Source of the DNA: Gordonia bronchialis DSM 43247 | GTDB taxonomy: Bacteria > Actinomycetota > Actinomycetes > Mycobacteriales > Mycobacteriaceae | Direction of reading: 5' to 3' | Length of the DNA stretch: 64,000 nt | Assembly (NCBI RefSeq): GCF_000024785.1 | Contig: NC_013441.1 | Location: forward strand, 3,038,001-3,102,000 | Shown: positions 16,285 to 27,489 of the stretch, piece by piece | How the letters are laid out: each line of letters opens with the position of its first letter | Position numbering within the stretch: the first letter of the stretch is position 1 | Made by a program: the position numbers and the translations under genes | The notes under the pieces: model-generated | What the model was told of the DNA's origin: nothing | Seen by the model: the letters and a program-made list of their open reading frames with translations, nothing else | Databases searched by the model: none

Positions 16285-16956
16285 GTGTCCGCGGTCCGTG
16301 CTGTCTACCCGCAGCCGGACCGGCCCCTACCCGAGCGTCCCGACGCCGCCGCCCGGCTCGTCGTCGCAGTCGGCTCCAACGCGTCGCCCGCGGTGATGGC
16401 GGCCAAACTCGGCCACGCGATCCCCATCTTCGGCGTCCGCGTGGCCGGTCTGGCCGTCGGGCACTCCGCCCACGTGGCGGCACGCGGCTACATCCCGGCC
16501 ACCCCCGTACCGAGCCCCGGCGCTGCCCTCAGCACCGGTGCCGCCTGGCTCGGCGACGACGACCTCGCGACACTGGACTCCACCGAACCGAACTATCATC
16601 GATTAACAGTGACTACGCACGACCATCCCCTGTGTCCCTCCCCGGATCAGCCACCGACGCCCGACGACGCGCCCACCGAGTTCTCGGTGTACGTGTCGCG
16701 CCACGGTGCGCTCGGCGACGCCCGGACCGGCGAGGTGCTGACCTTCGGCCCGCAGCAACGCGTCCTGGACTGGCTGCACGCGCGCGTCGGTGACCCCGTG
16801 TTCAGCGGGGATGCCGCCACCGTCTGTGCGCGACTCGGCCGACCCGCCACCGCGCGCACGATCACCGAGCGCCTGCACGCACACGGCCTCGCGCTTCCGG
16901 TGTGGCCGTCGCACGGTGACGCCGCGAGCGCAGTCGGGACCGGAGTCCGCAGATGA
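16285..16956 (+). CDS. GGCT-like fold hypothetical protein
   Basis: A 223-residue cytoplasmic protein. Two segments recall the gamma-glutamylcyclotransferase-like fold: an N-terminal VVAVGSNASPAVMAAKLG, like the YGSN loop, and WLGDDDLATLDSTEPNYHRL, like the conserved LDxxE-Y region. Function is not established; other GGCT-like enzymes act on gamma-glutamylamines or on peptide adducts. The start is uncertain: GTG 16285 is the only standard start, yet the codons before it (HEYPW) also read as protein and the first upstream stop is at about 16219. Its stop overlaps the ATG of helR by four bases, so the two are translationally coupled. Confidence 0.6.
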   Translation: MSAVRAVYPQPDRPLPERPDAAARLVVAVGSNASPAVMAAKLGHAIPIFGVRVAGLAVGHSAHVAARGYIPATPVPSPGAALSTGAAWLGDDDLATLDSTEPNYHRLTVTTHDHPLCPSPDQPPTPDDAPTEFSVYVSRHGALGDARTGEVLTFGPQQRVLDWLHARVGDPVFSGDAATVCARLGRPATARTITERLHAHGLALPVWPSHGDAASAVGTGVRR

Positions 16957-19319
16957 CCGCGGTCTCTCCCGACGCCGATCCCCGCTTCGACGAGGAACAG
17001 GCTCATCTCGACCGCGTCTACGGGCGTCTGGACCGCATGCGATCCACGACCCGCCGGCGCCTGTCGACCACGCTGAGCGAGTCCGGCGGCACTCCGCAGG
17101 CCCGGTCCGAGCGCGAGTCGTATGAACGGATGTACACCGAGGATCTCGCCAAATTCGATGCCGCCGAACACAATCTGTATTTCGGCCGGCTCGACCTCGA
17201 CGACGGTGAAGTCCGTCGGATCGGACGGATCGGGGTCCTCGACGACGGGATCGGCGAAGACGGCGTCCGCGACGAGGAAGCAGCCGACTCGACGTTGCTG
17301 CTGGACTGGCGGGCTCCGCTGTCGCGCCCGTTCTATCTGGCCACACCGGCCGCACCGGAGGAAGTCACCCGCCGTCGTCACATCCGCACCCGCAGCCGTA
17401 AGGTCCGCGGCGTCAGCGATGAGCTGCTCACCGGCGCCGAAGCCGACTTCGACGACGTGGGCAACGGCGACGTGGTGAATGAATCCGCCCTCGTCGCCGC
17501 ACTCAACGCCGCCCGCACCGGCGAGATGACCGACATCGTCGAGACGATCCAGCGTGAGCAGGACCTCATCATCCGCTCGACGCACCGGGGTGTCACCGTC
17601 ATCCAGGGCGGACCGGGCACCGGCAAGACCGCCGTCGCGCTGCATCGCGCCGCCTACCTGCTCTACACGCATCGGGACATCTTGTCGCGCAGCGGAATTC
17701 TGATCGTAGGCCCTAACGACGACTTCCTGACCTACATCGGTCAGGTGCTGCCGTCGTTGGGCGAGTCCGGTGTCCTGTTGTCCACCATCGGAAATCTGTT
17801 CCCGGGGGTCACCGCGCAGGCTGTGGATTCTCGCGCGGCCGCGGTGGTCAAGGGCGATCTGCGGATGGTCGACGTACTCAAGCGTGCGGTCCGCGCCCGT
17901 CAGTCATTGCCGAGCACGCCGGTCACCGTCGACTTCGACGGCTATCAGGTGCAGATCGATTCTGCTCTGATCAAGAATGCCCGTGCGAAGGCACGCAGCA
18001 CCCGCCGCGCGCACAATCTCGCCCAGCGTCCCTTCCTGCGCGCCGCCGTCGGCGAACTCGCAGTCCGTCATGCCAACACCATCGGCGCCAGCCTCCTCGA
18101 CGGTTCGCAGCTGCTCAGTGTCGATGACATCGCCGACATCCGCGACGACATGAGCCGCGATCCCGACATCCGCGCAGCCCTGGTCCGCTACTGGCCGTCG
18201 CTGACCCCGCAGGATCTGTTGCGCGACTTCTACGCCGACCCCGCCGCCATCCGCCGCGCCACCCCGGGGTGGTCGGATGCGGAGCGTGGCGCTCTCGGCC
18301 GGCCCGCCGGGCCACGTGAGTCGTCGGGGACGGACTTCTCCCCTGCCGACGTCCCGTTGCTCGACGAGCTGGCCGAACTCATCGGCTACGGCACCGAGGA
18401 CGCCGAACGTGCCGAACGAGCACGCTGGCGGCGTCAGCTCGCCGAGGCCCAGGACGCCCTCGACATCCTGACCGGCTCCGCGCCGCAGGACATCGAGGAC
18501 GAACTCGACCCCGAGATCCTGATGGCGTACGACCTCATCGACGCCGAGCAACTCGCCGCCCGCCAGACCGAGGTCCGCAGCGCCACCACCGCCGAACGCG
18601 CCTACGGCGACCGGACCTGGACGTTCGGTCATGTGATCGTCGACGAAGCACAGGAACTCTCCGCGATGGCCTGGCGGATGATCATGCGCCGCATACCGAA
18701 TCGTTGGATGACCATCATCGGCGACACCGCGCAGACCAGTGACGAGGCGGGCACGCGGTCGTGGCGCGAGGTGCTGCAACCGTACGTCGCCAACCGCTGG
18801 CAGTTGCGCGAACTGACCGTCAACTACCGCACCCCCAGCGAGATCATGCGCTACGCCACGCGTGTACTGGGCCGCATCGGCGACGCCGCTACAGCACCGA
18901 CATCCTTGCGCAGCAACGGAATCCAGCCCACCTCGGTCACTCCCGATGCTGTCGGTCAGCCGACCCTGGAGGATGCGGTGGTCGCGGTCTCGCGCCACCA
19001 GCACACCGGTCTCACCGCCGTCATCGTGCCCGAGATGCTGTACCGGTCGGTGTCCGCAGCGGTCGCCGGCGCCGGACTCGACGACCCGCCGCGCGTCTAC
19101 ACCGTCCGCACCGCCAAGGGCCTGGAGTTCGACACGACGGTCGTCGTCGAACCGTCCGCGATCATCGGCGAGGCCGATGGGCCGGAACAGTACGGCTACA
19201 GCGATCTCTATGTGGCCCTCACCCGCGCGACCCAGCGCCTGCTGGTGGTGCACGCCCAACCGCTGCCCGACGAACTCGCCGATATGCCCACGCAGCCCAA
19301 CCCCACACCCGCCGACTGA
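16953..19319 (+). CDS. helR: HelD/HelR-type RNA polymerase-recycling helicase-like ATPase
   Basis: A 788-residue SF1-type ATPase of the actinobacterial HelD/HelR class, which removes stalled or rifamycin-bound RNA polymerase from DNA. The N-terminal coiled coil (FDEEQAHLDRVYGRLDRMRS) that reaches into the polymerase secondary channel is present, then WRAPLSRPFYLATP, the Walker A GGPGTGKTAVALHRAAYLLY near residue 218, Walker B IVDEAQELSAMAWRMI, motif III GDTAQTSDEAG, motif IV NYRTPSEIM and the C-terminal VYTVRTAKGLEFDTTVVVEP. Such proteins give rifampicin tolerance in several actinobacteria. The ATG overlaps the preceding stop (ATGA). A rifamycin-associated element was not recognised upstream. 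Confidence 0.9.
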   Translation: MTAVSPDADPRFDEEQAHLDRVYGRLDRMRSTTRRRLSTTLSESGGTPQARSERESYERMYTEDLAKFDAAEHNLYFGRLDLDDGEVRRIGRIGVLDDGIGEDGVRDEEAADSTLLLDWRAPLSRPFYLATPAAPEEVTRRRHIRTRSRKVRGVSDELLTGAEADFDDVGNGDVVNESALVAALNAARTGEMTDIVETIQREQDLIIRSTHRGVTVIQGGPGTGKTAVALHRAAYLLYTHRDILSRSGILIVGPNDDFLTYIGQVLPSLGESGVLLSTIGNLFPGVTAQAVDSRAAAVVKGDLRMVDVLKRAVRARQSLPSTPVTVDFDGYQVQIDSALIKNARAKARSTRRAHNLAQRPFLRAAVGELAVRHANTIGASLLDGSQLLSVDDIADIRDDMSRDPDIRAALVRYWPSLTPQDLLRDFYADPAAIRRATPGWSDAERGALGRPAGPRESSGTDFSPADVPLLDELAELIGYGTEDAERAERARWRRQLAEAQDALDILTGSAPQDIEDELDPEILMAYDLIDAEQLAARQTEVRSATTAERAYGDRTWTFGHVIVDEAQELSAMAWRMIMRRIPNRWMTIIGDTAQTSDEAGTRSWREVLQPYVANRWQLRELTVNYRTPSEIMRYATRVLGRIGDAATAPTSLRSNGIQPTSVTPDAVGQPTLEDAVVAVSRHQHTGLTAVIVPEMLYRSVSAAVAGAGLDDPPRVYTVRTAKGLEFDTTVVVEPSAIIGEADGPEQYGYSDLYVALTRATQRLLVVHAQPLPDELADMPTQPNPTPAD

Positions 19320-19348
19320 GCCGCCACCCGTCCAGCCAGCCGACGGCG

Positions 19349-19972
19349 CTAGCCTGCAGAAAGTGCGGCCAGCGCCTCGTCCACGCTCAGCACATCGGCG
19401 TATTTGGCCTGTAGGTCAAGGAGATTGGCCCGATGAATGGCAGGTTCCCGCTCGCCACAGGCCTCATCGATGACGAGCGGCCGGAATCCGTGTTGCAGGG
19501 CGTCGGTCGCCGTCGCCCGGATGCATCCGCTGGTGCTCAATCCGCAGATGTAGAGCGTGTCGATGCCCGCGGCAGTGAGTGTGGCGGCCAGCGTCGTCCC
19601 GAAGAAGGCACTGGCGTACTGCTTGGTCACGATCACCTCGCCGGGTTCGGGACGTGGCTCGTCGACGAAGTCGCCGAGCGCCGATCCCTCCTCGAACACC
19701 TTGAGTGCCGGAATCTTTCGCATGAACAGTCCACCGTCGGCCCCGCCGGGGAGGTAAACGACCCGGGTGAACACCACCGGTACCGCGCTGTCGCGTGCGG
19801 CCGCGACCACTCGCCCGCAGGCCGCAACCGCATCTTCGACCGGCGCGCGCAGCGGCGACGCGTCGTCAAGGTACGCGCGTACCAGATCGACGACGAGCAC
19901 CGCCGGCCGGCGACCGGGACCGAGGTCACCGGCGAACCCCGAATCCCGGTAGGCCTCGAGGGCGTCGTTCAC
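19349..19972 (-). CDS. Isochorismatase-family amidohydrolase (N-carbamoylsarcosine amidase-like)
   Basis: A 207-residue cysteine hydrolase of the isochorismatase superfamily. The catalytic triad can be placed: Asp29 (VLVVDLV), Lys117 (VIVTKQYASAFFGT) and Cys150 (CGLSTSGCIRATATDAL). The sequence around the Lys and Cys resembles N-carbamoylsarcosine amidohydrolase and maleamate amidase more than nicotinamidase, so cleavage of a carbamoyl or amide group with release of ammonia is expected. The GTG start overlaps the stop of hyuB (GTGA), which implies translational coupling and a shared pathway with the hydantoinase/oxoprolinase subunits. Last gene of the leftward operon. Confidence 0.82.
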   Translation of the reverse strand: MNDALEAYRDSGFAGDLGPGRRPAVLVVDLVRAYLDDASPLRAPVEDAVAACGRVVAAARDSAVPVVFTRVVYLPGGADGGLFMRKIPALKVFEEGSALGDFVDEPRPEPGEVIVTKQYASAFFGTTLAATLTAAGIDTLYICGLSTSGCIRATATDALQHGFRPLVIDEACGEREPAIHRANLLDLQAKYADVLSVDEALAALSAG

Positions 19973-21858
19973 GCCCCAACTGCCTTGCGCACGTTGACCG
20001 GCGGCCGCGGCGGCTGCAACCCGGTCTCCGCCTCGCAGTTCGCCAGGATCTCGGCGATCTCGGGCCCCTTGTCGAAGACCGGGAGTTCCCCACGGCCCGA
20101 GCGTATCTCGGTCCGCAGCGCGTCGGTGGCCGCCACGTCGACGGTGCCGTCCTCAGCACAGACGACGCCGTATCCGTCGCGGGCGCCCGCCGCGCTGACC
20201 AGCTTGCGCCGTACTTCCAGCGCCACCAGTTCCGGGTCCCGCTCGAGCGGATCACCCCATCCGCCGCCACCCCAGGTGACGAAGTGCAGGACATCACCGC
20301 GACCGACCGGGACATCGTGAATCTTGCTGGGCAATACTTCCACCTCGCCCGATGCTCGCACGATCCACTTGCGGCCCCGCGCACCGGGTTTGCCACCGTT
20401 CACACCCCATGGGTAGGTGAGCCACCGATCGTCGTGGATGGCGATGGTGCCGGGCTCCTCGAAGTGGTACGCGACGTCCACACCGTTCCCGCCGCGGTGC
20501 AGGCCTGCCCCGCCGGTGTCGCGGATGGTCTCCCACCGTTCCACCCGCAACGGATAATACGACTCGAGGTATTCGCACGGGATGTTCACGAACGACGGCC
20601 AGAGCGAGTGGCCGTCCGGCCCGTCGCCCATCGGACGGCCCGGGATGCCACCGAAGCCGATCGAGTACAGCTGGAACCACTCTCCGTCGCGAGGACCGCC
20701 GTCGTAGTGTCCCGAGTACATGAAGTGCGGCGACGACGAGAAGCCGGCCGCGTTGAGGATCTCCGGGTTGTTCTTGCCGAGCAGACCACCGAACAGATCA
20801 AAGACGCGGCCGATCCCGTGATTGCGACCGTTGAGCGCGGCCGGATACCGGGGTTTCCAGAATGAGTCCTCGGGAATGGTCACGTCGATCAGCGGGTAAA
20901 AGCCGTCGTTCCAGAGGATCTGGGGGTCGGCGACGGTGATCACGTAGATCCCGAAGAACATGCGGACCAGGTTCTCGTTGATGAAGTAGTTCACCGGGCC
21001 GACGGCCTGCGGCGCCGCCTCGGAGAAGTCGAGGTGGACCTTCTCCCCGGTGCGGGTCAGCTTGATGGTGAGTTCGTAAGGGCCGTAACCACATCCGTCG
21101 TCGCAAATGTAGTCGCTGAACTCGATGGTCTCACCGTCGACGAACAACATCGACAACAGGACTTTCATCGCCTGGTAGTTGCGGTCGAGCAGCGCGTCGA
21201 GCGCCGAGAGGTACACGTCCGCACCGAAGCGGTCGCACAGTTCACCGATGCGGCGCGCCGCGGTGGTACACGCGGCGACGAGCCCGTTGAGGTCGGCGCG
21301 ATTCCAGTCCGGCATCCGCACCTGGTTGAGGATGATGTCGAGCGCGGTCTCGTTGAGCTCCCCGCCGCTGTAGAGCTTGAACGGCGGGATCACCACGCCC
21401 TCTTCGAAGATCGTGCGCGCGTCGGTCGGCATCGACGACGGGGTCTTGCCACCGACGTCGGACATGTGACCGAACATCGACGCCCAGCCGACGACTCGAC
21501 CCTCGTGGAAGATCGGCAGCACGATGAGCCAGTCGTTGGCGTGGCTGATCGCGGCACCACACGCATAGGGATCCGACGTTAGCAGGATGTCACCCTCGCC
21601 GACGGTGCCGTCGAAGTTGTCGAGGAAATCCGGAACCGACAGCCCGAACTGGCCGACCACCATCTTGCCACTCGGGTCGGCGATGAGCGGGAACTCGTCG
21701 TGTTGTTCGCGGATGCCCGGTGAGAGCGCTGTCCGGAACAGCACCTCATCCATCTCGTAACGGGCGTTGCGCAAGGCGTTTTCGATGATGTCGAGGGTGA
21801 CCGGATCGACCGGCACCTTGGTGGCGGGGGTGGTCGAGGTCTCGATGATGGTTGCCAT
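19969..21858 (-). CDS. hyuB: Hydantoinase B/oxoprolinase family protein
   Basis: The 629-residue B subunit of an ATP-dependent hydantoinase/oxoprolinase-type enzyme. It has the family landmarks ISHANDWLIVLPIFHEGRVVGW, FGHMSDVGG near residue 130, and the C-terminal GGNGVDVAYHF and TWGGGGWGDPLERDPE. It needs the A subunit encoded next to it. Known members open hydantoins, 5-oxoproline or caprolactam, or carboxylate acetone/acetophenone; the substrate here cannot be told from sequence. It lies 52 bp downstream of hyuA and overlaps the amidohydrolase gene. Confidence 0.9.
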   Translation of the reverse strand: MATIIETSTTPATKVPVDPVTLDIIENALRNARYEMDEVLFRTALSPGIREQHDEFPLIADPSGKMVVGQFGLSVPDFLDNFDGTVGEGDILLTSDPYACGAAISHANDWLIVLPIFHEGRVVGWASMFGHMSDVGGKTPSSMPTDARTIFEEGVVIPPFKLYSGGELNETALDIILNQVRMPDWNRADLNGLVAACTTAARRIGELCDRFGADVYLSALDALLDRNYQAMKVLLSMLFVDGETIEFSDYICDDGCGYGPYELTIKLTRTGEKVHLDFSEAAPQAVGPVNYFINENLVRMFFGIYVITVADPQILWNDGFYPLIDVTIPEDSFWKPRYPAALNGRNHGIGRVFDLFGGLLGKNNPEILNAAGFSSSPHFMYSGHYDGGPRDGEWFQLYSIGFGGIPGRPMGDGPDGHSLWPSFVNIPCEYLESYYPLRVERWETIRDTGGAGLHRGGNGVDVAYHFEEPGTIAIHDDRWLTYPWGVNGGKPGARGRKWIVRASGEVEVLPSKIHDVPVGRGDVLHFVTWGGGGWGDPLERDPELVALEVRRKLVSAAGARDGYGVVCAEDGTVDVAATDALRTEIRSGRGELPVFDKGPEIAEILANCEAETGLQPPRPPVNVRKAVGA

Positions 21859-21910
21859 CGCGAAGCTCCTGTGATCGGGGAAAGGGAGAGTGTGGGTGGG
21901 TCGGGCGGGC

Positions 21911-23965
21911 TCAGATCGGGCGGATCAGCAGACTCCCGTTCGGATGAACCGTCGCCGCGTGACCGGAGAGGACCAGGGTCGTCGAATCCATCTCGGTGAT
22001 GACGGCGGGACCGGGAATGACGTTGCCGGACAGCAGTTGTGCGCGGTCGTATATCGGCGCCTCGACGTGACCGCCGTCCATCCACACCGTGCTCTGCGCC
22101 ACCCGCGCCGCCGACGGATCAGCATCACCCTCCGCGAGTGGCTGCCAGGCGACCTCCGGACGTGGACCGCTGAGGGCGACACGCAGGTTGATCACCTCGC
22201 GTTCGTTCTTGAGCAGGAACGAGAACAGTCGCTGGTGTTCGGCGTCGAAGGCGGCACCGAGTGCGCCGAGGAGATCGTCACCGGCAAGGGTCTCGGCGTC
22301 GAGGTCGACGGGGATCTCGAAACCCTGACCGTGATAGCGCAGATCGACCTGATAGCGGGCCGTCTGTTGCTCGGCCGGCACCCCTTCGGCGGAAAGTCGT
22401 TGCGCCGAAGCCGAAGCCAATTCTTCTAGCGCGGTGCGGAGCTCGGCGTCGTCGAGTTGGGAGAAGGACCGCACCATGGTGCGCGCGCTCTCGTCCTTGA
22501 CACATGTGGTGGCGTCGCCGTAGGCACACAGCACACCGGGCGACGGTGGCACGATCACCGGCCACGACCCGGTCAGTCGGCCCAGCGCGTTGGCGTGCAG
22601 CGGGCCGGCACCGCCGAACGCGACGAGGGCGAAATCCCGTGGGTCGTAACCCTGCTGCACACTCACCAGACGCAACGCGCCGAACATGTTCTCGTTGACG
22701 ATGTCGATGATGCCCGACGCGGCGGCTTCGGGGCTGTCGAGTCCCATCGCCTCGGCGATGGTGGCCACCGCCTTGCGCCCGGCCTCCACGTCGAGGGCAA
22801 CCTCGCCGCCGGCCAGTTCGTGCGGCAGATAGCCGAGGACGACGTTGGCGTCGGTGACCGTCGGTTCCACGCCACCGGCCCCGTAGGCGGCGGGACCCGG
22901 ATCGGCTCCGGCCGATTGAGGCCCCACCCGCAGCGCCCGCGTCAGTTCGGGTACGTGGGCGATCGAACCGCCGCCGGCTCCGACGGTTCGCACATCGACG
23001 CTGGTCGCCCGTACCGCGAGATCGCCGACCTTGGTCTCGCGGCCGATCCGCGGTTCGCCGCCGAGGACCAGCGCGACGTCGGTGGACGTGCCGCCCATGT
23101 CGAAGGTGAGGAAGTCGCTGAACCCGGCCTGCTGTGCGAACCACACCGCGCCGGTCACGCCACCGGCCGGTCCGGACAGCAGCAGCGACACCGGGTCCTC
23201 GGCGGCCTTGGACGCCTGCACGAGACCGCCGTCGCTGCGCAGGATCGACAGCGGCGCGGCGCTGCCCTGTCCGCGCAGGGTGTCGTCGAGATTGCGGACA
23301 TACCGCGACACCTCGGGCTGCACGTAGCTGTTGGCGACGGTGGTGAGAGTGCGCTCGTACTCCCGCATCTCGTGCAGCACGTGGCTCGAGATCGACACCG
23401 GGATGCCGGGCAGCTCCTCGGCAGCCCAGGCCGCCACCTGCTTCTCGTGCGCGTCGTTGGCGTAGGAGTTGATCAGCGAGATGGTCAGCGCCTCGATACC
23501 GGCGCCGGCAAGACCGCGCAGCGCGGTACGTGCCTGCTCCTCGTCGAGCGCGATCACCTCGCTACCGTCGGCCGCGATCCGTCCGGTGACCTCGATGGTG
23601 TGCTCGAGCCTGGCCAGCGGCTCGGGTTTGGGCCAGATGATCCAGCCCGCGAGTCCGCCTGGCACGAACGACCGTGCGATCTGCAGCACCTGGCGGAATC
23701 CGTCGGTGGTCACCAGCCCGACACGCGCGCCCCGACCCTGCAGGATCGCGTTGGTGGCGACGGTGGTGCCGTGCAGGACCTGTCCCACCTCGGACAGGTC
23801 GATCCCCGCTTCGGCACAGACCTTCGCGACGCCGTTGAGAACGCCCACGGACTGGTCCGACGGTGTCGATGGGGTTTTAGCGCGGTAGGTGGTTCCGGAC
23901 GTCTCTTCCAAGAGCAGGACGTCGGTGAAGGTGCCGCCCACGTCGACGCCGAGTCGGTAACGCAT
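21911..23965 (-). CDS. hyuA: Hydantoinase A/oxoprolinase family protein
   Basis: The 684-residue A subunit, carrying the actin-like ATPase fold. The N-terminal phosphate loop YRLGVDVGGTFTDVLLLEE is diagnostic, followed by GTTVATNAILQG, the second nucleotide motif FDMGGTSTDVALV, and GAGGGSIAHV. The C-terminal third carries the family's beta-rich domain (LRYHGQGFEIPVDL). ATG 23965 is preferred (GGAG six nucleotides upstream); an in-frame TTG 12 bp earlier lies inside the ribosome-binding site. It partners HyuB in ATP-dependent amide or ring opening. Third gene after the regulator and CoA-transferase. Confidence 0.9.
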   Translation of the reverse strand: MRYRLGVDVGGTFTDVLLLEETSGTTYRAKTPSTPSDQSVGVLNGVAKVCAEAGIDLSEVGQVLHGTTVATNAILQGRGARVGLVTTDGFRQVLQIARSFVPGGLAGWIIWPKPEPLARLEHTIEVTGRIAADGSEVIALDEEQARTALRGLAGAGIEALTISLINSYANDAHEKQVAAWAAEELPGIPVSISSHVLHEMREYERTLTTVANSYVQPEVSRYVRNLDDTLRGQGSAAPLSILRSDGGLVQASKAAEDPVSLLLSGPAGGVTGAVWFAQQAGFSDFLTFDMGGTSTDVALVLGGEPRIGRETKVGDLAVRATSVDVRTVGAGGGSIAHVPELTRALRVGPQSAGADPGPAAYGAGGVEPTVTDANVVLGYLPHELAGGEVALDVEAGRKAVATIAEAMGLDSPEAAASGIIDIVNENMFGALRLVSVQQGYDPRDFALVAFGGAGPLHANALGRLTGSWPVIVPPSPGVLCAYGDATTCVKDESARTMVRSFSQLDDAELRTALEELASASAQRLSAEGVPAEQQTARYQVDLRYHGQGFEIPVDLDAETLAGDDLLGALGAAFDAEHQRLFSFLLKNEREVINLRVALSGPRPEVAWQPLAEGDADPSAARVAQSTVWMDGGHVEAPIYDRAQLLSGNVIPGPAVITEMDSTTLVLSGHAATVHPNGSLLIRPI

Positions 23966-24034
23966 GGTGATCTCCAAAGTGTTGGGAGTTGAGCTGATGG
24001 GATTGTGTTCTCTTGGTACAGAATGGGTTCGGTG

Positions 24035-25267
24035 TCAGATGACGCCGTGCGCGGCGAGTTCGGCCAGTCCGTCGTCGTCGATGTCGAGCAGACCGGAGTA
24101 GATCTCGACGTTGTGTTCACCGAGTTGCGGCCCGGGATGGCGTACCGCGCCCGGGGTGTCACCGAGTTTCGGGAAGACCCCGTGCATGGGGATCTCGCCG
24201 AAGTCGGGGTGCGCCAACCTGACGATGGCCTCGCGCGCGGCGAAGTGCGGGTCAGCGAACATGTCGCGCGCGGTGTAGATCCGTCCGGCCGGAACCCCGG
24301 CCTCGTGCAGGATCTCGAGCAATTCCTCGGTCCCGTGGTCACGGGTCCACGCGGCGATCACTTCGTCGAGTTCGGCCATGTTCTCGCCGCGGAATGCGTG
24401 ATCGCGATAACGCGGATCCGTGATCAGGTCGTCGCGGCCCATCGCCCCGGCCAGTCGCGCGAAAACGGTGTCCTGGTTGGCGGCGACCAGGATCATCTCG
24501 TCGCCCTTGGTGGGGTAGACATTGCTCGGTGCGATGTTCGGCAGCACCGAGCCGGTCCGTTCGCGCTGGTATCCGCCGATCTCCCATTCCGGTAGCAACG
24601 ATTCCATCATGCCGAGGACCGCCTCGTAGATCGCCGAGTCGACGAGCTGTCCTCGCCCGGACCGCGCACGCTGATGGACGGCAGCGAGGACGCCGATGGT
24701 GGCGAACACGGCGGCGAGTGAATCCCCGATGGAGATGCCGCTGCGCGACGGTGGCATGCCGGCATCGCCGGTGACATAACGGATTCCGCCCATCGCCTCG
24801 CCGATGGACCCGAAGCCGGCTCGCGGCGAGTAGGGACCGTCCTGTCCGTAGCCGGTGACCCGCGCCATGATCAACCCGGGGTTGTCGGCCCGTAGCTCCT
24901 CGAAGCCGAGCCCCCAGCGTTCGAGCGTCCCGGGGCGAAAGTTCTCCACCACGATGTCGGCTTCGGCGATGATGCGGCGGGCCAGGACCTGTCCTTCGGG
25001 ACTGCGCAGATTGCAGGTCACCGACTTCTTGTTGCGCGCGACCACCGGCCACCACAACGACTTGCCATGTGGTTTCTCGCGACCCCACTGCCGCATCGGG
25101 TCGCCGACGCCCGGCGGCTCGAGCTTGATCACCTCAGCGCCGAAGTCGCCCAGCAGTTGCCCGCAGAACGGTCCGGCGAGCAGCTGCCCCATCTCCACGA
25201 CACGCAGATCCGACAGCGGGCCCCGACGCTCCCCCACGGCGCCCGTGGTGGTTGCGACATCAGTCAT
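24035..25267 (-). CDS. CaiB/BaiF-type family III CoA-transferase
   Basis: A 410-residue family III CoA-transferase, which moves CoA between carboxylic acids without a covalent acyl-phosphate stage. Typical stretches are LRVVEMGQLLAGPFCGQLL, DFGAEVIKLEPPGVGDPMRQ, DIVVENFRPGTLERWGL and FGSIGEAMGGIRYVTGD; the family's catalytic aspartate lies downstream of these, probably in SAIYEAVLGMMESL or nearby, but I cannot assign it with certainty. ATG 25267 has AGAGGA seven nucleotides upstream; the longer ORF extension is rejected. The substrate is probably a dicarboxylate or hydroxyacid made by the neighbouring hydrolases. It lies between the GntR gene and hyuA on the same strand. Confidence 0.88.
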   Translation of the reverse strand: MTDVATTTGAVGERRGPLSDLRVVEMGQLLAGPFCGQLLGDFGAEVIKLEPPGVGDPMRQWGREKPHGKSLWWPVVARNKKSVTCNLRSPEGQVLARRIIAEADIVVENFRPGTLERWGLGFEELRADNPGLIMARVTGYGQDGPYSPRAGFGSIGEAMGGIRYVTGDAGMPPSRSGISIGDSLAAVFATIGVLAAVHQRARSGRGQLVDSAIYEAVLGMMESLLPEWEIGGYQRERTGSVLPNIAPSNVYPTKGDEMILVAANQDTVFARLAGAMGRDDLITDPRYRDHAFRGENMAELDEVIAAWTRDHGTEELLEILHEAGVPAGRIYTARDMFADPHFAAREAIVRLAHPDFGEIPMHGVFPKLGDTPGAVRHPGPQLGEHNVEIYSGLLDIDDDGLAELAAHGVI

Positions 25268-25311
25268 CTGGCATTCCTCTTCTCGTTCGGTAGGGGTGCG
25301 CAGGCGCCACG

Positions 25312-26001
25312 TCAGACCGCGGTGTCCGACGGCACTGTCACGGGACCGCCCTGGGCCGCCTCGTCGGCGGCAAGTGCTTGTAGCAGAACAGATTTGGCCG
25401 CGCGGACGTGGGCGCGCATCACCGAGCCCGCCCACACCGGATCACCCGCGCGTAGCGCTGCGACCAGGTCACGATGATGTGCGTGGCTGCGTGCCAGGTC
25501 CGTGGGTGTGTACCGATGGAAGGTTCGCATCACCAGGGGCAGCGCGATGACCGCACCGAGCATCGAGACCAACCGCGCACTCGCCGCCGCCGATCGGACG
25601 ATCGCATGGAACTCGTCGTTCAGGGCGGCGAGCCGGTCGAGATCAGGGTTGTCGGCGGTGGCGGACTCCATCAGAACGCACAGCTCGTCCATACGATCCA
25701 GTTCGGCGGGCCGGATTCGTCCGGTCGCGCGCTCGGCTGCCATCGCCTCCAGCGTCATCCGCAGGTCGTAGATCTCCTCGAGGTCATCGGCGGTCCAGGT
25801 GTACACACGCGCGCCGCGATGGGGAAGGACCTCGACCAGTCCCTCCATCTCGAGTTGACGTAACGCCTCCCGAACCGGGGTCCGGCTGGTCCGGGTCAGT
25901 TCGGCGATCTCCACCTCACCGAGCCGCGCCCCCGGGGCGTACCGACCGTCGACGATGGCATCACGGATGTGTGCGTACACGCGGTCGACTGCCCTGGTCA
26001 T
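25312..26001 (-). CDS. GntR-family regulator, FCD (FadR) subfamily
   Basis: A 229-residue repressor type. The N-terminal winged helix shows VYAHIRDAIVDGRYAPGARL and TSRTPVREALRQLEMEGLVE; the C-terminal FCD helical domain has the metal-binding pattern in ALNDEFHAIV and HAHHRDLVAALRAGD. ATG 26001 has GAGGGAG just upstream; a GTG at 26028 is rejected for lack of a ribosome-binding site. It heads the leftward operon and is divergent from the HMG-CoA-lyase-like gene. Two palindromes in the shared promoter are its likely operators; FCD proteins usually sense a pathway carboxylate. Confidence 0.88.
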   Translation of the reverse strand: MTRAVDRVYAHIRDAIVDGRYAPGARLGEVEIAELTRTSRTPVREALRQLEMEGLVEVLPHRGARVYTWTADDLEEIYDLRMTLEAMAAERATGRIRPAELDRMDELCVLMESATADNPDLDRLAALNDEFHAIVRSAAASARLVSMLGAVIALPLVMRTFHRYTPTDLARSHAHHRDLVAALRAGDPVWAGSVMRAHVRAAKSVLLQALAADEAAQGGPVTVPSDTAV

Positions 26002-26020
26002 TGCACTCCCTCGGCCTTGA

Positions 26021-26030
26021 TTGTTCACAA
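26021..26030. promoter_or_regulatory. Candidate GntR operator 1
   Basis: TTGTTCACAA is a near-palindrome (TTGT-N2-ACAA) 20 bp upstream of the GntR start codon. Its half-sites resemble those bound by FCD-type GntR regulators. Autoregulation is inferred. Confidence 0.5.
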
Positions 26031-26093
26031 CCTAGACCGAGATCGGCTGATTCGTGCGGTAATCACCGTAAAAATCGGGTTACTTCCCCACCG

Positions 26094-26103
26094 TTGCATG
26101 CAA
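26094..26103. promoter_or_regulatory. Candidate GntR operator 2
   Basis: TTGCATGCAA is a perfect 10-bp palindrome, 27 bp before the HMG-CoA-lyase-like start codon. Its centre is 73 bp (about seven helical turns) from that of the similar site at 26021-26030, so both could be bound on the same face of the DNA to control the divergent promoters. Confidence 0.55.
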
Positions 26104-26129
26104 TCGCTGACGAGTGTCACGATGGACGG

Positions 26130-27032
26130 ATGACATCGGTGGAACTGGTCGAGGTGGGCCCCCGCGACGGGCTGCAGAACGAGCAGACGTTGCTCTCGGT
26201 CGATGAGAAGGTCGAACTCATCACCCGCGCGGTCGACGCCGGGGTTCGTCGCATCGAGGCGGTCAGCTTCGTCAATCCCAAACGCGTACCGCAGATGGCC
26301 GGTGCCGAGGAGGTCATGGCGGCGGTCCCCCGGCGTTCCGACGTCTCCTACATCGGTCTCGTCCTGAACCGACGCGGCCTCGACCGTGCGGTCACCGCCG
26401 GCGTCGACGAGGTCAACGCCGTCGTCGTGTCGACCGAGGAGTTCAGTAGACGAAATCAGGGATGCAGTGTCGCCGAGGGGATTTCGGCGGCAATTGACGT
26501 GGTGCGCGACGCCCGGGCGGCCGGCATGCGCACCACGGTCACGGTCGCAACCGCCTTCGGCTGCCCGTTCTCCGGTGAGGTCGAGGTGGACTGGATCAGG
26601 CAGATCGTCGCCGATCTCGTCGACGGTGCCGCGCCGGATGAGATCGCCCTCGCCGACACCATCGGCGTCGGGGTACCCGCGCAGGTCCGGGCGTTGTCGG
26701 CGGCCGCTACAGCCTCAGCGCCGGGGATCGCGCAGCGCTGGCATTTTCATAACACGCGCAACACCGGATACGCGAACGCATTGACTGCCTTGGACACCGG
26801 CGCACACGCGCTCGACGCGAGCATCGGCGGCTTCGGCGGGTGCCCGTTCGCACCGGCCGCCACCGGCAACATCGCGTCCGAGGACCTGCTCTACGCACTC
26901 GATCGGTCCGAGGTGTCCACCGGTGTGGACATGGCCGGATTGATCGACGCCGCACAGTGGCTCGGCGGGGCGCTGGACAAAGCGGTGCCGGCACTACTCG
27001 GACGCGCCGGGGGATTCCCGACGCGTCCGTGA
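26130..27032 (+). CDS. Hydroxymethylglutaryl-CoA lyase-like protein
   Basis: A 300-residue TIM-barrel lyase of the HMG-CoA lyase family, which splits 3-hydroxy-acyl-CoA thioesters to acetyl-CoA and a keto product. The active-site GPRDGLQNEQ is at residues 9-18, the metal-site histidines are in RWHFHNTRNTGYAN, and the catalytic-cysteine loop is GGFGGCPFAPAATGN. ATG 26130 is preferred over an upstream in-frame start at 25971 that would run into the GntR gene. Being divergent from a CoA-transferase/HyuAB operon with a shared regulator, it probably cleaves a CoA ester made by that pathway; leucine catabolism is the alternative. Confidence 0.85.
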   Translation: MTSVELVEVGPRDGLQNEQTLLSVDEKVELITRAVDAGVRRIEAVSFVNPKRVPQMAGAEEVMAAVPRRSDVSYIGLVLNRRGLDRAVTAGVDEVNAVVVSTEEFSRRNQGCSVAEGISAAIDVVRDARAAGMRTTVTVATAFGCPFSGEVEVDWIRQIVADLVDGAAPDEIALADTIGVGVPAQVRALSAAATASAPGIAQRWHFHNTRNTGYANALTALDTGAHALDASIGGFGGCPFAPAATGNIASEDLLYALDRSEVSTGVDMAGLIDAAQWLGGALDKAVPALLGRAGGFPTRP

Positions 27033-27042
27033 GTGACAGGTG

Positions 27043-27489
27043 TCAGTGGGTGGTGTGCACGATCAGCACGTCACACGCCGACTTGCGCGCGACATCGGCC
27101 GGCACCGACCCGAGGAGCCGGCCGGCGATCGAGTTCAGTCCACGGTTGCCGACGACAAGCAGGTCGGCCTTCACGTCGGTCACCAACTGCAACAGCGCGT
27201 CCACGGGCGCGCCTTTGACGGGCCGCGGCACGATGTTGGTCGCACCGGCACCGGCCGCACGCTCACGTGCGGTCCGCAGGATCTCCTCGGTCGGCGCGGA
27301 GCCGGTCACCTGATAGGCCTCGTCCTTGAGGATGTCGGCCGCCTCGCCGGAGCCGCGGTCATTGGGGAAGTAAGCGCAAGCGATCACGAGCTGAGCCCGT
27401 TCCCCGGCCAGAGCACCTGCGCGTTCCACCGCCTTCATCGATGATTCGGAACCGTCCGTACCGACGACGACGGTCTCGTATGCGCTCAT
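27043..27489 (-). CDS. Universal stress protein (UspA family)
   Basis: A 148-residue single-domain Usp. It starts YETVVVGTDGSESSMKAVER and ends with the ATP-binding pattern GNRGLNSIAGRLLGSVPADV, which fits the G-2X-G-9X-G-S consensus of nucleotide-binding Usps. By position it matches Rv1636 of M. tuberculosis, which binds cAMP; that property is not shown here. It converges on the lyase gene with 10 bp between stops and lies downstream of uvrB on the same strand. The 180-bp gap to uvrB holds no recognised element. Confidence 0.9.
   Translation of the reverse strand: MSAYETVVVGTDGSESSMKAVERAGALAGERAQLVIACAYFPNDRGSGEAADILKDEAYQVTGSAPTEEILRTARERAAGAGATNIVPRPVKGAPVDALLQLVTDVKADLLVVGNRGLNSIAGRLLGSVPADVARKSACDVLIVHTTH

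Follow-up and report, generated by a model that had tools for sequence, protein, structure and literature searches.

A divergent six-gene locus in Gordonia bronchialis

We analyzed a 64,000 nt stretch of Gordonia bronchialis DSM 43247 DNA (contig NC_013441.1, positions 3,038,001 to 3,102,000; hereafter the window), in which six genes at 19349-27032 encode a predicted two-subunit ring-opening hydrolase (HyuA and HyuB), an isochorismatase-type amidase, a CaiB-type CoA-transferase, a member of the 3-hydroxy-3-methylglutaryl-CoA (HMG-CoA) lyase family (HMGL), and a GntR-type regulator. The amidase, hyuB, hyuA, caiB, and gntR genes are oriented leftward, and the HMGL gene is oriented rightward, divergent from gntR. 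All six reading frames are present, and each matched its named family in domain-model scans. The starts of HyuA, CaiB, GntR, and HMGL in the list of open reading frames (ORFs) lay too far upstream, and ATG starts were picked from the sequence instead. Read on the leftward strand, the genes are separated by 44 bp (gntR-caiB), 69 bp (caiB-hyuA), and 52 bp (hyuA-hyuB), and hyuB overlaps the amidase gene, which starts with GTG, by 4 bp (GTGA); the start codons of GntR and HMGL are 128 bp apart. This confirmed the layout given in the preliminary description of the locus, namely a leftward GntR-CaiB-HyuA-HyuB-amidohydrolase operon with short spacings and a GTGA overlap, divergent from HMGL. A scan of 19000-27300 for sigma-70-like promoters and terminators gave no match. 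HyuB is single copy in the genome, which comprises 5.29 Mb in two contigs.

HyuB (19969..21858, leftward; PF02538, 464.2 bits) is the predicted metal-site subunit of an ATP-dependent hydantoinase/oxoprolinase-type hydrolase, and HyuA (21911..23965, leftward; 684 aa from the ATG) is the predicted ATP-binding subunit, with matches to PF01968 (Hydantoinase_A; 297.8 bits), PF05378 (162.3 bits), and PF19278 (52.9 bits). Hydantoinase_A, its N-terminal domain, and Hydantoinase_B all scored above the curated cut-offs, which places both subunits in the HyuA/HyuB family. The best relative in the Protein Data Bank (PDB) is an N-methylhydantoinase for either subunit (7hk5, 209.9 bits, for HyuB; 463 bits for HyuA, followed by 6yra with 390 bits). 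The Asp-His-Asp-His metal site of the B subunit, as defined in a passage of PMC8453981, was located at D54, H106, D109, and H131 by motif reading rather than structural alignment; the first three residues are present in 122/122 HyuB loci and H131 in 102/122. In the other 20 loci, H131 is replaced by Asn (motif WGNLMDVG), and these belong to haloarchaea (L192, L193, and L201-L204) and to the f32/Rubrobacter group (14 loci: L158, L160, L161, L164-L171, L182, L183, and L194) only. The NCBIfam equivalog models for caprolactamase CapAB gave 519.6 and 177.9 bits, below the cut-off of 1000. An identity as acetone/acetophenone-type carboxylase was rejected because the cut-offs were missed (ApcC 318.5 and ApcD 99.7 versus 1500 bits; ApcA 173.7 versus 1250) and the amidase would be left unexplained. 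The six genes include neither an M20 hydrolase of the HyuC type nor a hydantoin racemase, and thus the locus does not have the make-up of a 5-substituted hydantoin operon.

The amidase (19349..19972, leftward; PF00857, 129.5 bits) belongs to the isochorismatase superfamily and resembles half-amidases and N-carbamoylsarcosine amidases. Its closest solved relatives are the N-carbamoylsarcosine amidohydrolase 26st (164 bits), 3ot4 (139.5 bits), and 1nba (118.1 bits). The Asp-Lys-Cys triad defines amidases of the N-carbamoylsarcosine/maleamate type, and it is conserved here as D29 (111/111 aligned relatives), K117, and C150 (both 110/110), so that triad and fold family together assign the protein to this type.

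CaiB (24035..25267, leftward; 410 aa; PF02515, 416.4 bits) is a CaiB/BaiF family III CoA-transferase. The nearest NCBIfam model, succinate--glutarate CoA-transferase, scored 279 bits, under its cut-off of 750, and the best solved relatives are 4ed9 (CaiB/BaiF family) and then 9br7 (succinate--hydroxymethylglutarate CoA-transferase). HMGL (26130..27032, rightward; 300 aa) scored 297.1 bits with NCBIfam PRK05692, above the subfamily cut-off of 246 for HMG-CoA lyase. Its catalytic residues are retained among the aligned relatives: R12, D13, E43, H205, and H207 in 73/73, and D176 and C238 in 72/73.

The regulator (25312..26001, leftward; PF00392, 65.8 bits; PF07729, 83.5 bits) is of the GntR/FadR type with an FCD ligand domain. 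The GntR-HMGL divergent region contains the 10-mer TTGTTCACAA at 26021..26030 (unstranded), a TTGT-N2-ACAA inverted repeat that is probably the GntR operator. The FadR-like recognition pattern TNGTNNACNA was found in 14 of 37 divergent regions of loci that carry CaiB and HMGL, the window included, and 23/37 are without it; 200 mononucleotide shuffles gave a mean of 1.2 and a maximum of 5. All 14 matches are the identical 10-mer, carried by the window, Gordonia tangerina, eight Rhodococcus/Rhodococcoides loci, and four Williamsia loci. The pattern matched only 1/26 divergent regions of the loci with an alternative lyase described below. GntR would probably control both divergent units through this predicted site. 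The six genes are flanked by a UvrD-helicase-like gene (16953-19319) on the left and by a usp gene and uvrB, whose UvrB domains were confirmed, on the right.

Conserved linkage and exchange of the lyase module

The preliminary description had proposed to look for the same neighborhood across Actinobacteria. We searched the genome_contigs collection (84,980 species) for HyuB relatives and obtained 507 stretches, of which the best 80, all from Actinomycetota, were kept and queried with the six window proteins. HyuA and HyuB were found in 80/80 loci. GntR is encoded in 77/80, the amidase in 75/80, CaiB in 50/80, and HMGL in 48/80, and the full set of six genes is present in 46/80. This association is far above chance. 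Loci of Rhodococcus, Williamsia, Gordonia, and Actinomadura have a divergent HMGL gene; in those of Mumia, Lentzea, Nocardioides, Intrasporangium, and Micromonospora, it lies downstream of the amidase gene and is co-directional with it. As gene order and strand differ among loci, the linkage is more than an inherited order.

The nearest HyuB among the 80 loci is that of G. tangerina (92% identity), whose cluster has a similar uvrB/usp flank. The cluster is rare within the genus, a close-kind match being present in 2/37 Gordonia genomes, G. bronchialis included; in a sample of the phylum, 30/396 genomes matched the HyuB profile at E <= 1e-150. In the group f32 (probably Rubrobacteraceae), 17 genomes matched and 13 loci were extended: CaiB is encoded in 13/13 and HMGL, adjoining CaiB, in 11/13, with HyuA about 45% identical. 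We found the set or its variants in Gordonia, Rhodococcus, Actinomadura, Rubrobacter, Novosphingobium, Acidiphilium, Geobacillus, and haloarchaea, in several of them on plasmids. In these and the following counts, L040/L041 (one metagenome-assembled genome, identical HyuB), L036/L176 (probably one genome), L171/L194 (one plasmid), the near-identical Haladaptatus plasmids H17/H18, and the similar clusters H8, H9, and H10 are kept as separate entries. As judged from sequence comparison, the six genes form a real, conserved catabolic unit, and their co-transcription is predicted.

The preliminary description had left room for an HMGL required only for leucine catabolism, which would then stand by chance beside an unrelated lactam-hydrolase operon. 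The genome has five PF00682 matches, two of them with DmpG domains; two further PF00682 proteins we take from their length, not from a classification tool, to be LeuA and pyruvate carboxylase, and HMGL of the window may therefore be the sole protein of the HMG-CoA-lyase type. However, HMGL is co-directional with and in or adjoining the operon in relatives as distant as Mumia, Lentzea, Nocardioides, Micromonospora, f32, Novosphingobium, and Geobacillus, and it is missing jointly with CaiB in 30/80 loci. Moreover, the genome offers PF03328 candidates for the leucine step (five matches in four proteins, one marginal), and a PF03328 protein, Rv2498c, serves leucine breakdown in Mycobacterium tuberculosis according to a passage of PMC6689899. 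A dedicated leucine enzyme is therefore very unlikely. Elsewhere in the G. bronchialis genome, at L154:4614-13082, another CaiB gene lies within about 6 kb of an HMGL-like gene, but the latter encodes a DmpG domain of the 4-hydroxy-2-oxovalerate aldolase type; acyl-CoA dehydrogenase genes and a thiolase gene are nearby.

Loci with and without HMGL fall into two main types. CaiB and HMGL occur without an isocitrate-lyase-type enzyme in 47/80 loci; in 28/80, both are absent and a methylisocitrate-lyase-like enzyme of the isocitrate-lyase/PEP-mutase family is encoded instead. CaiB alone was found in 2/80 and neither module in 2/80, one of which is a 4-kb contig. L066 is the sole locus with both modules, and its lyase is only 47% identical. 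The lyase-type loci include Geodermatophilus, Blastococcus, Modestobacter, Pseudonocardia, and Prauserella, and the lyase gene is divergent from gntR in 26 of the 28. The K[KR]CGH motif of the lyase is present in 28/29 aligned segments. Haloarchaeal plasmids vary likewise: four carry HyuA-HyuB-amidase-lyase, and three, two of which are near-identical Haladaptatus plasmids, carry HyuA-HyuB-amidase with a 40% identical CaiB, HMGL being replaced by a LeuA/citramalate-synthase-like enzyme. The archaeal and actinobacterial lyases that were compared are 44% identical, and the closest PDB entries to the one lyase examined are petal death protein and 2,3-dimethylmalate lyase. An assignment to PrpB of the methylcitrate cycle was rejected, as eight scanned lyases scored 227.6-290.7 bits versus a cut-off of 354.4.

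From the chemistry of these families, an acid that HMGL-like or LeuA-like enzymes can cleave as a CoA ester, and isocitrate-lyase-type enzymes in free form, would be a C2-substituted 2-hydroxysuccinate. The exchange of lyase modules thus favors a 2-alkylmalyl-CoA over HMG-CoA as the substrate of HMGL. The preliminary description probably misjudged the diacid; a 2-hydroxy-2-alkylsuccinate of the citramalate type is more probable than an HMG-type acid, because isocitrate-lyase-type and citramalate-synthase-like enzymes replace HMGL and LeuCD-type hydratases join some clusters.

In an alternative route, a six-membered imide or lactam would yield 3-hydroxy-3-methylglutarate, from which CaiB would make HMG-CoA; HMGL, as an ordinary HMG-CoA lyase, would then split this ester into acetoacetate and acetyl-CoA. 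The subfamily score of HMGL and the second solved relative of CaiB, 9br7, agree with such a route. Nevertheless, we regard it as distinctly unlikely, since the two kinds of stand-in for HMGL indicate a 2-hydroxysuccinate core, which is absent from HMG, and since LeuCD-type hydratases act on maleate-type acids.

Plasmid relatives, hydratases, and parallel ring openers

The 20 best plasmid matches to HyuB were 57-60% identical in Alphaproteobacteria and 47-49% in Geobacillus, Rubrobacter, and haloarchaea. For seven Novosphingobium records that lacked usable annotation in the eight stretches examined, ORFs were called by a script, and the plasmid counts were rechecked by tblastn. The caller is crude and may overlook genes, such as that of HMGL in L166. 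Some lyase is present in 17/20 records: CaiB with HMGL in four, CaiB with a LeuA-type enzyme in three, and an isocitrate-lyase-type enzyme in ten, which in H3 lies about 14 kb away. CaiB alone was found in 1/20 and neither in 2/20, and the isochorismatase-type amidase is encoded in 16/20. An additional CaiB/HMGL pair lies at a distance in H1 and H7, next to another LeuCD.

LeuCD-type hydratase genes lie directly downstream of the amidase gene in L164 and L108, and in or beside the clusters of L066, L172, the Geobacillus and Acidiphilium plasmids, and five Novosphingobium plasmids. The order in L172 is lyase, LeuC, HyuA, HyuB, and no amidase was found on its 10.7-kb contig. We rejected LeuCD of L108 as the leucine-biosynthesis pair, because that genome holds a second full leuC, which is presumably the housekeeping copy. 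In the G. bronchialis genome, three proteins account for the four aconitase-family matches, namely LeuC, a long protein that is probably aconitase, and a 674-aa protein. Any of the three might, from its family, hydrate the acid in this organism. The 674-aa aconitase-like protein contains both aconitase domains and is encoded at L198:346-2370, far from the cluster, as a candidate unlinked hydratase.

Homologous amidase-LeuCD-lyase sets are accompanied by other ring openers, PuuE-type or dihydropyrimidinase-type proteins. These stand beside the set in L212 and in L066, and L206 unites them with it in a single cluster. On the Acidiphilium plasmid, a second operon within a few kb of the gntR gene of the HyuAB cluster consists of CaiB divergent from HMGL, isochorismatase, two PuuE/CE4-type proteins, LeuC, LeuD, an FAD oxidoreductase, a porin, and an MFS transporter. 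An operon devoid of HyuAB at L066:188-5138 encodes a dihydropyrimidinase-type protein, isochorismatase, LeuC, LeuD, and a PEP-mutase/isocitrate-lyase-type lyase, and adjoins an HMGL-CaiB-HyuAB-amidase cluster. In H1 and in the three Novosphingobium plasmids H8, H9, and H10, the genes of HyuAB, the lyase, the amidase, LeuCD, and a PuuE-like protein form one larger cluster, and H7 has such a cluster without the amidase.

A family scan of the Novosphingobium megaplasmid cluster at L206:18102-41948 also detected two flavin enzymes (an amine oxidase and a monooxygenase), aldehyde and alcohol dehydrogenases, and a regulator of the IclR type; the extra oxidoreductases may point to the parent compound. 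Similar clusters occur in L207, L208, L209, and L211, and no amidase was found in that of L208. On two plasmids, of Sphingomonas JE1 and Sphingobium TomTYG65 (L189 and L195), a HyuAB from the same group is accompanied by flavin oxidoreductases and a succinate-semialdehyde dehydrogenase, without amidase or lyase, perhaps reflecting another use of the same enzyme.

Dihydropyrimidinase-type enzymes are classical imidases. A passage of PMC9304392 relates HxnM, a cyclic imidase of fungi, both to the PuuE/HpPgdA group and to a cyclic imide hydrolase of Pseudomonas putida. An imide is preferred over a ureide or a lactam as the substrate mainly because the parallel ring openers belong to these imidase-containing families, an argument that is not conclusive.

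As controls, we took five plasmid loci with paralogous HyuB (H21, H22, H23, H27, and H28; 34-36% identity; 8-kb flanks) from ten paralogue rows, H21-H30, among 136 matching records in all; the focal plasmids had 10-18 kb flanks. By annotation and tblastn, isochorismatase, CaiB, HMGL, lyase, and LeuCD were found in 0/5 of these 8-kb flanks. Their HyuAB is accompanied instead by M20 hydrolases in 4/5, as in the HyuABC pathway, and by genes of the Asp/Glu-racemase family in 2/5.

This difference bears on a ureide pathway, in which HyuAB would open a hydantoin, for example N-methylhydantoin, and the amidase would cut an N-carbamoyl amino acid as in creatinine breakdown, with CaiB and HMGL serving another purpose. 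The best solved relatives of HyuA, HyuB, and the amidase have just these activities, a Novosphingobium capsulatum homologue is annotated as N-carbamoylsarcosine amidohydrolase, and the PuuE group of the parallel operons takes its name from an allantoinase. However, CaiB, with or without HMGL, or the replacing lyase in 78/80 loci would be left unexplained, and the amino acid product would be no substrate for LeuCD, CaiB, or the lyases. Together with the different company of the control HyuAB, this makes the ureide pathway unlikely.

A predicted route for a cyclic imide and its known counterparts

From the genes, their conserved linkage and catalytic residues, and the exchange of the lyase module in relatives, we infer the substrate, the reactions, and their regulation as follows. 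The locus would be an inducible operon for the breakdown of a small cyclic imide, most likely five-membered and alkyl-substituted (maleimide or succinimide type), a reading to which we give a probability of roughly 0.55. HyuAB would spend ATP to hydrolyze one ring C-N bond of the imide, and the amidase would free ammonia from the resulting half-amide to leave an alkylated C4 dicarboxylate of the maleate or malate type. If unsaturated, this acid could be converted to a 2-hydroxy-2-alkylsuccinate by a LeuCD/aconitase-type hydratase, which is encoded in the cluster of some relatives and would be unlinked in G. bronchialis. CaiB is predicted to form the CoA ester of the hydroxy acid, probably with succinyl-CoA as the donor, and HMGL to split this 2-hydroxy-2-alkylsuccinyl-CoA, such as (R)-citramalyl-CoA, into a 2-oxo acid and an acyl-CoA; citramalate would yield pyruvate and acetyl-CoA. 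Relatives with an isocitrate-lyase-type enzyme would cleave the free acid directly without a CoA ester.

Several observations weigh against this reading. LeuCD-type genes occur in few clusters, being found in 2/80 actinobacterial loci with the L108 pair as the query, in 1/13 extended f32 loci, and in 7 of the 20 best plasmid records, and no LeuCD was found near the window locus. LeuCD of Acidiphilium belongs to the PuuE-type operon, so that hydratase and parallel opener count there as one observation, not two, and the amidase, HMGL, and CaiB of this operon share only 34, 37, and 35% identity with their counterparts in the window. On the HyuB tree, the lyase exchange inside Actinomycetota amounts to one change and hence to a single event. 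Both amidase and lyase are missing from two Sphingomonad plasmids whose HyuB is 58% identical. Arg210 in the HNTR motif was rejected as a mark of HMGL specificity, because it is also present in the solved HMG-CoA lyases 1ydo and 6nds. Imide hydrolysis thermodynamically needs no ATP; the closest solved relatives, N-carbamoylsarcosine amidase and N-methylhydantoinase, would suit a ureide; and PuuE itself opens a ureide ring. Furthermore, 2/5 control stretches (H21 and H27) also contain PuuE/CE4-type 'polysaccharide deacetylase' genes, and the family is thus not peculiar to the imide-like set; for this reason, we lowered the probability of the imide reading from 0.58 to 0.55 and slightly raised that of the ureide pathway.

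Alkyl-maleimides from oxidized chlorophyll, haem, or bilins (methylmaleimide, methylethylmaleimide, and hematinic acid) have a slim chance of being the natural substrates. HyuAB would then open the pyrrole-2,5-dione and the amidase would yield an alkylated maleate, from which the LeuCD hydratase and a 2-alkylmalate lyase could produce pyruvate or 2-oxobutyrate together with acetyl, propionyl, or glutaryl units. Such a route would be a terminal step that recycles pigment nitrogen in soil, leaves, rock surfaces, and lakes, and on chemical grounds the tetrapyrrole link is an attractive candidate. No pigment genes were seen beside the cluster among the neighbors annotated or scanned, and our literature search found no paper linking these genes to maleimides. 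Passages of PMC7318184 cite maleimides and hematinic acid in senescent leaves and lake sediments, and its own data, as given there, list hematinic acid in leaves and no maleimides.

The order of ring opening, deamination, CoA ester formation, and C-C cleavage outlined in the preliminary description agrees with the comparative genomics, but it lacked a likely hydration step, and the acetyl-CoA proposed there as the product would apply to the simplest case and not in general. The logic of the set is retained although the lyase and, at two loci, the ring opener are exchanged, and its wide spread with swapped parts suggests widespread use of a cyclic nitrogen compound. The analysis allows better annotation of genes labeled 'N-methylhydantoinase' or 'hydroxymethylglutaryl-CoA lyase' and provides a short list of substrates.

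No description of this gene set was found in the open-licence PMC literature, and its parts resemble several known systems. The bacterial imidase/half-amidase pathway converts an imide via a half-amide to a dicarboxylate and ammonia, and the imidases of known cyclic-imide pathways have other folds and are ATP-independent. HxnM and HxnN carry out the corresponding steps from the imide ring in fungal nicotinate breakdown, as described in part of PMC9304392. The ring-to-half-amide-to-dicarboxylate logic of the present cluster is alike, whereas an ATP-type HyuAB, an amidase of the isochorismatase fold, and a CoA-transferase/lyase end set it apart. The first two steps of the N-methylhydantoin (creatinine) pathway use the same two enzyme families. 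That pathway is not known to involve a CoA-transferase, lyase, or hydratase, and its product is the amino acid sarcosine. At the other end of the route, (R)-citramalyl-CoA lyase is a member of the HMGL family and (R)-citramalate CoA-transferase of the CaiB family. These activities (EC 4.1.3.46 and, for the succinyl-CoA-dependent transferase, EC 2.8.3.20) are named in PMC8307300. They comprise the CoA transfer to a 2-methylmalate and the ester cleavage that are predicted here, but they are not known to be linked to an imide-opening hydrolase. ATP-dependent ring opening of the HyuA/HyuB type is described in a passage of PMC8453981 for caprolactamase CapAB, 5-oxoprolinase, the HyuAB/HyuC hydantoinase, and IaaCE of indoleacetate breakdown. 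The downstream enzymes of all four differ from those encoded here. Finally, clostridial nicotinate fermentation employs 2,3-dimethylmaleate hydratase and 2,3-dimethylmalate lyase on a diacid derived from 2-methyleneglutarate. Its LeuCD-type hydratase and isocitrate-lyase-family lyase have counterparts in L066, L172, and L206, but the diacid of the clostridial pathway does not arise from an imide.

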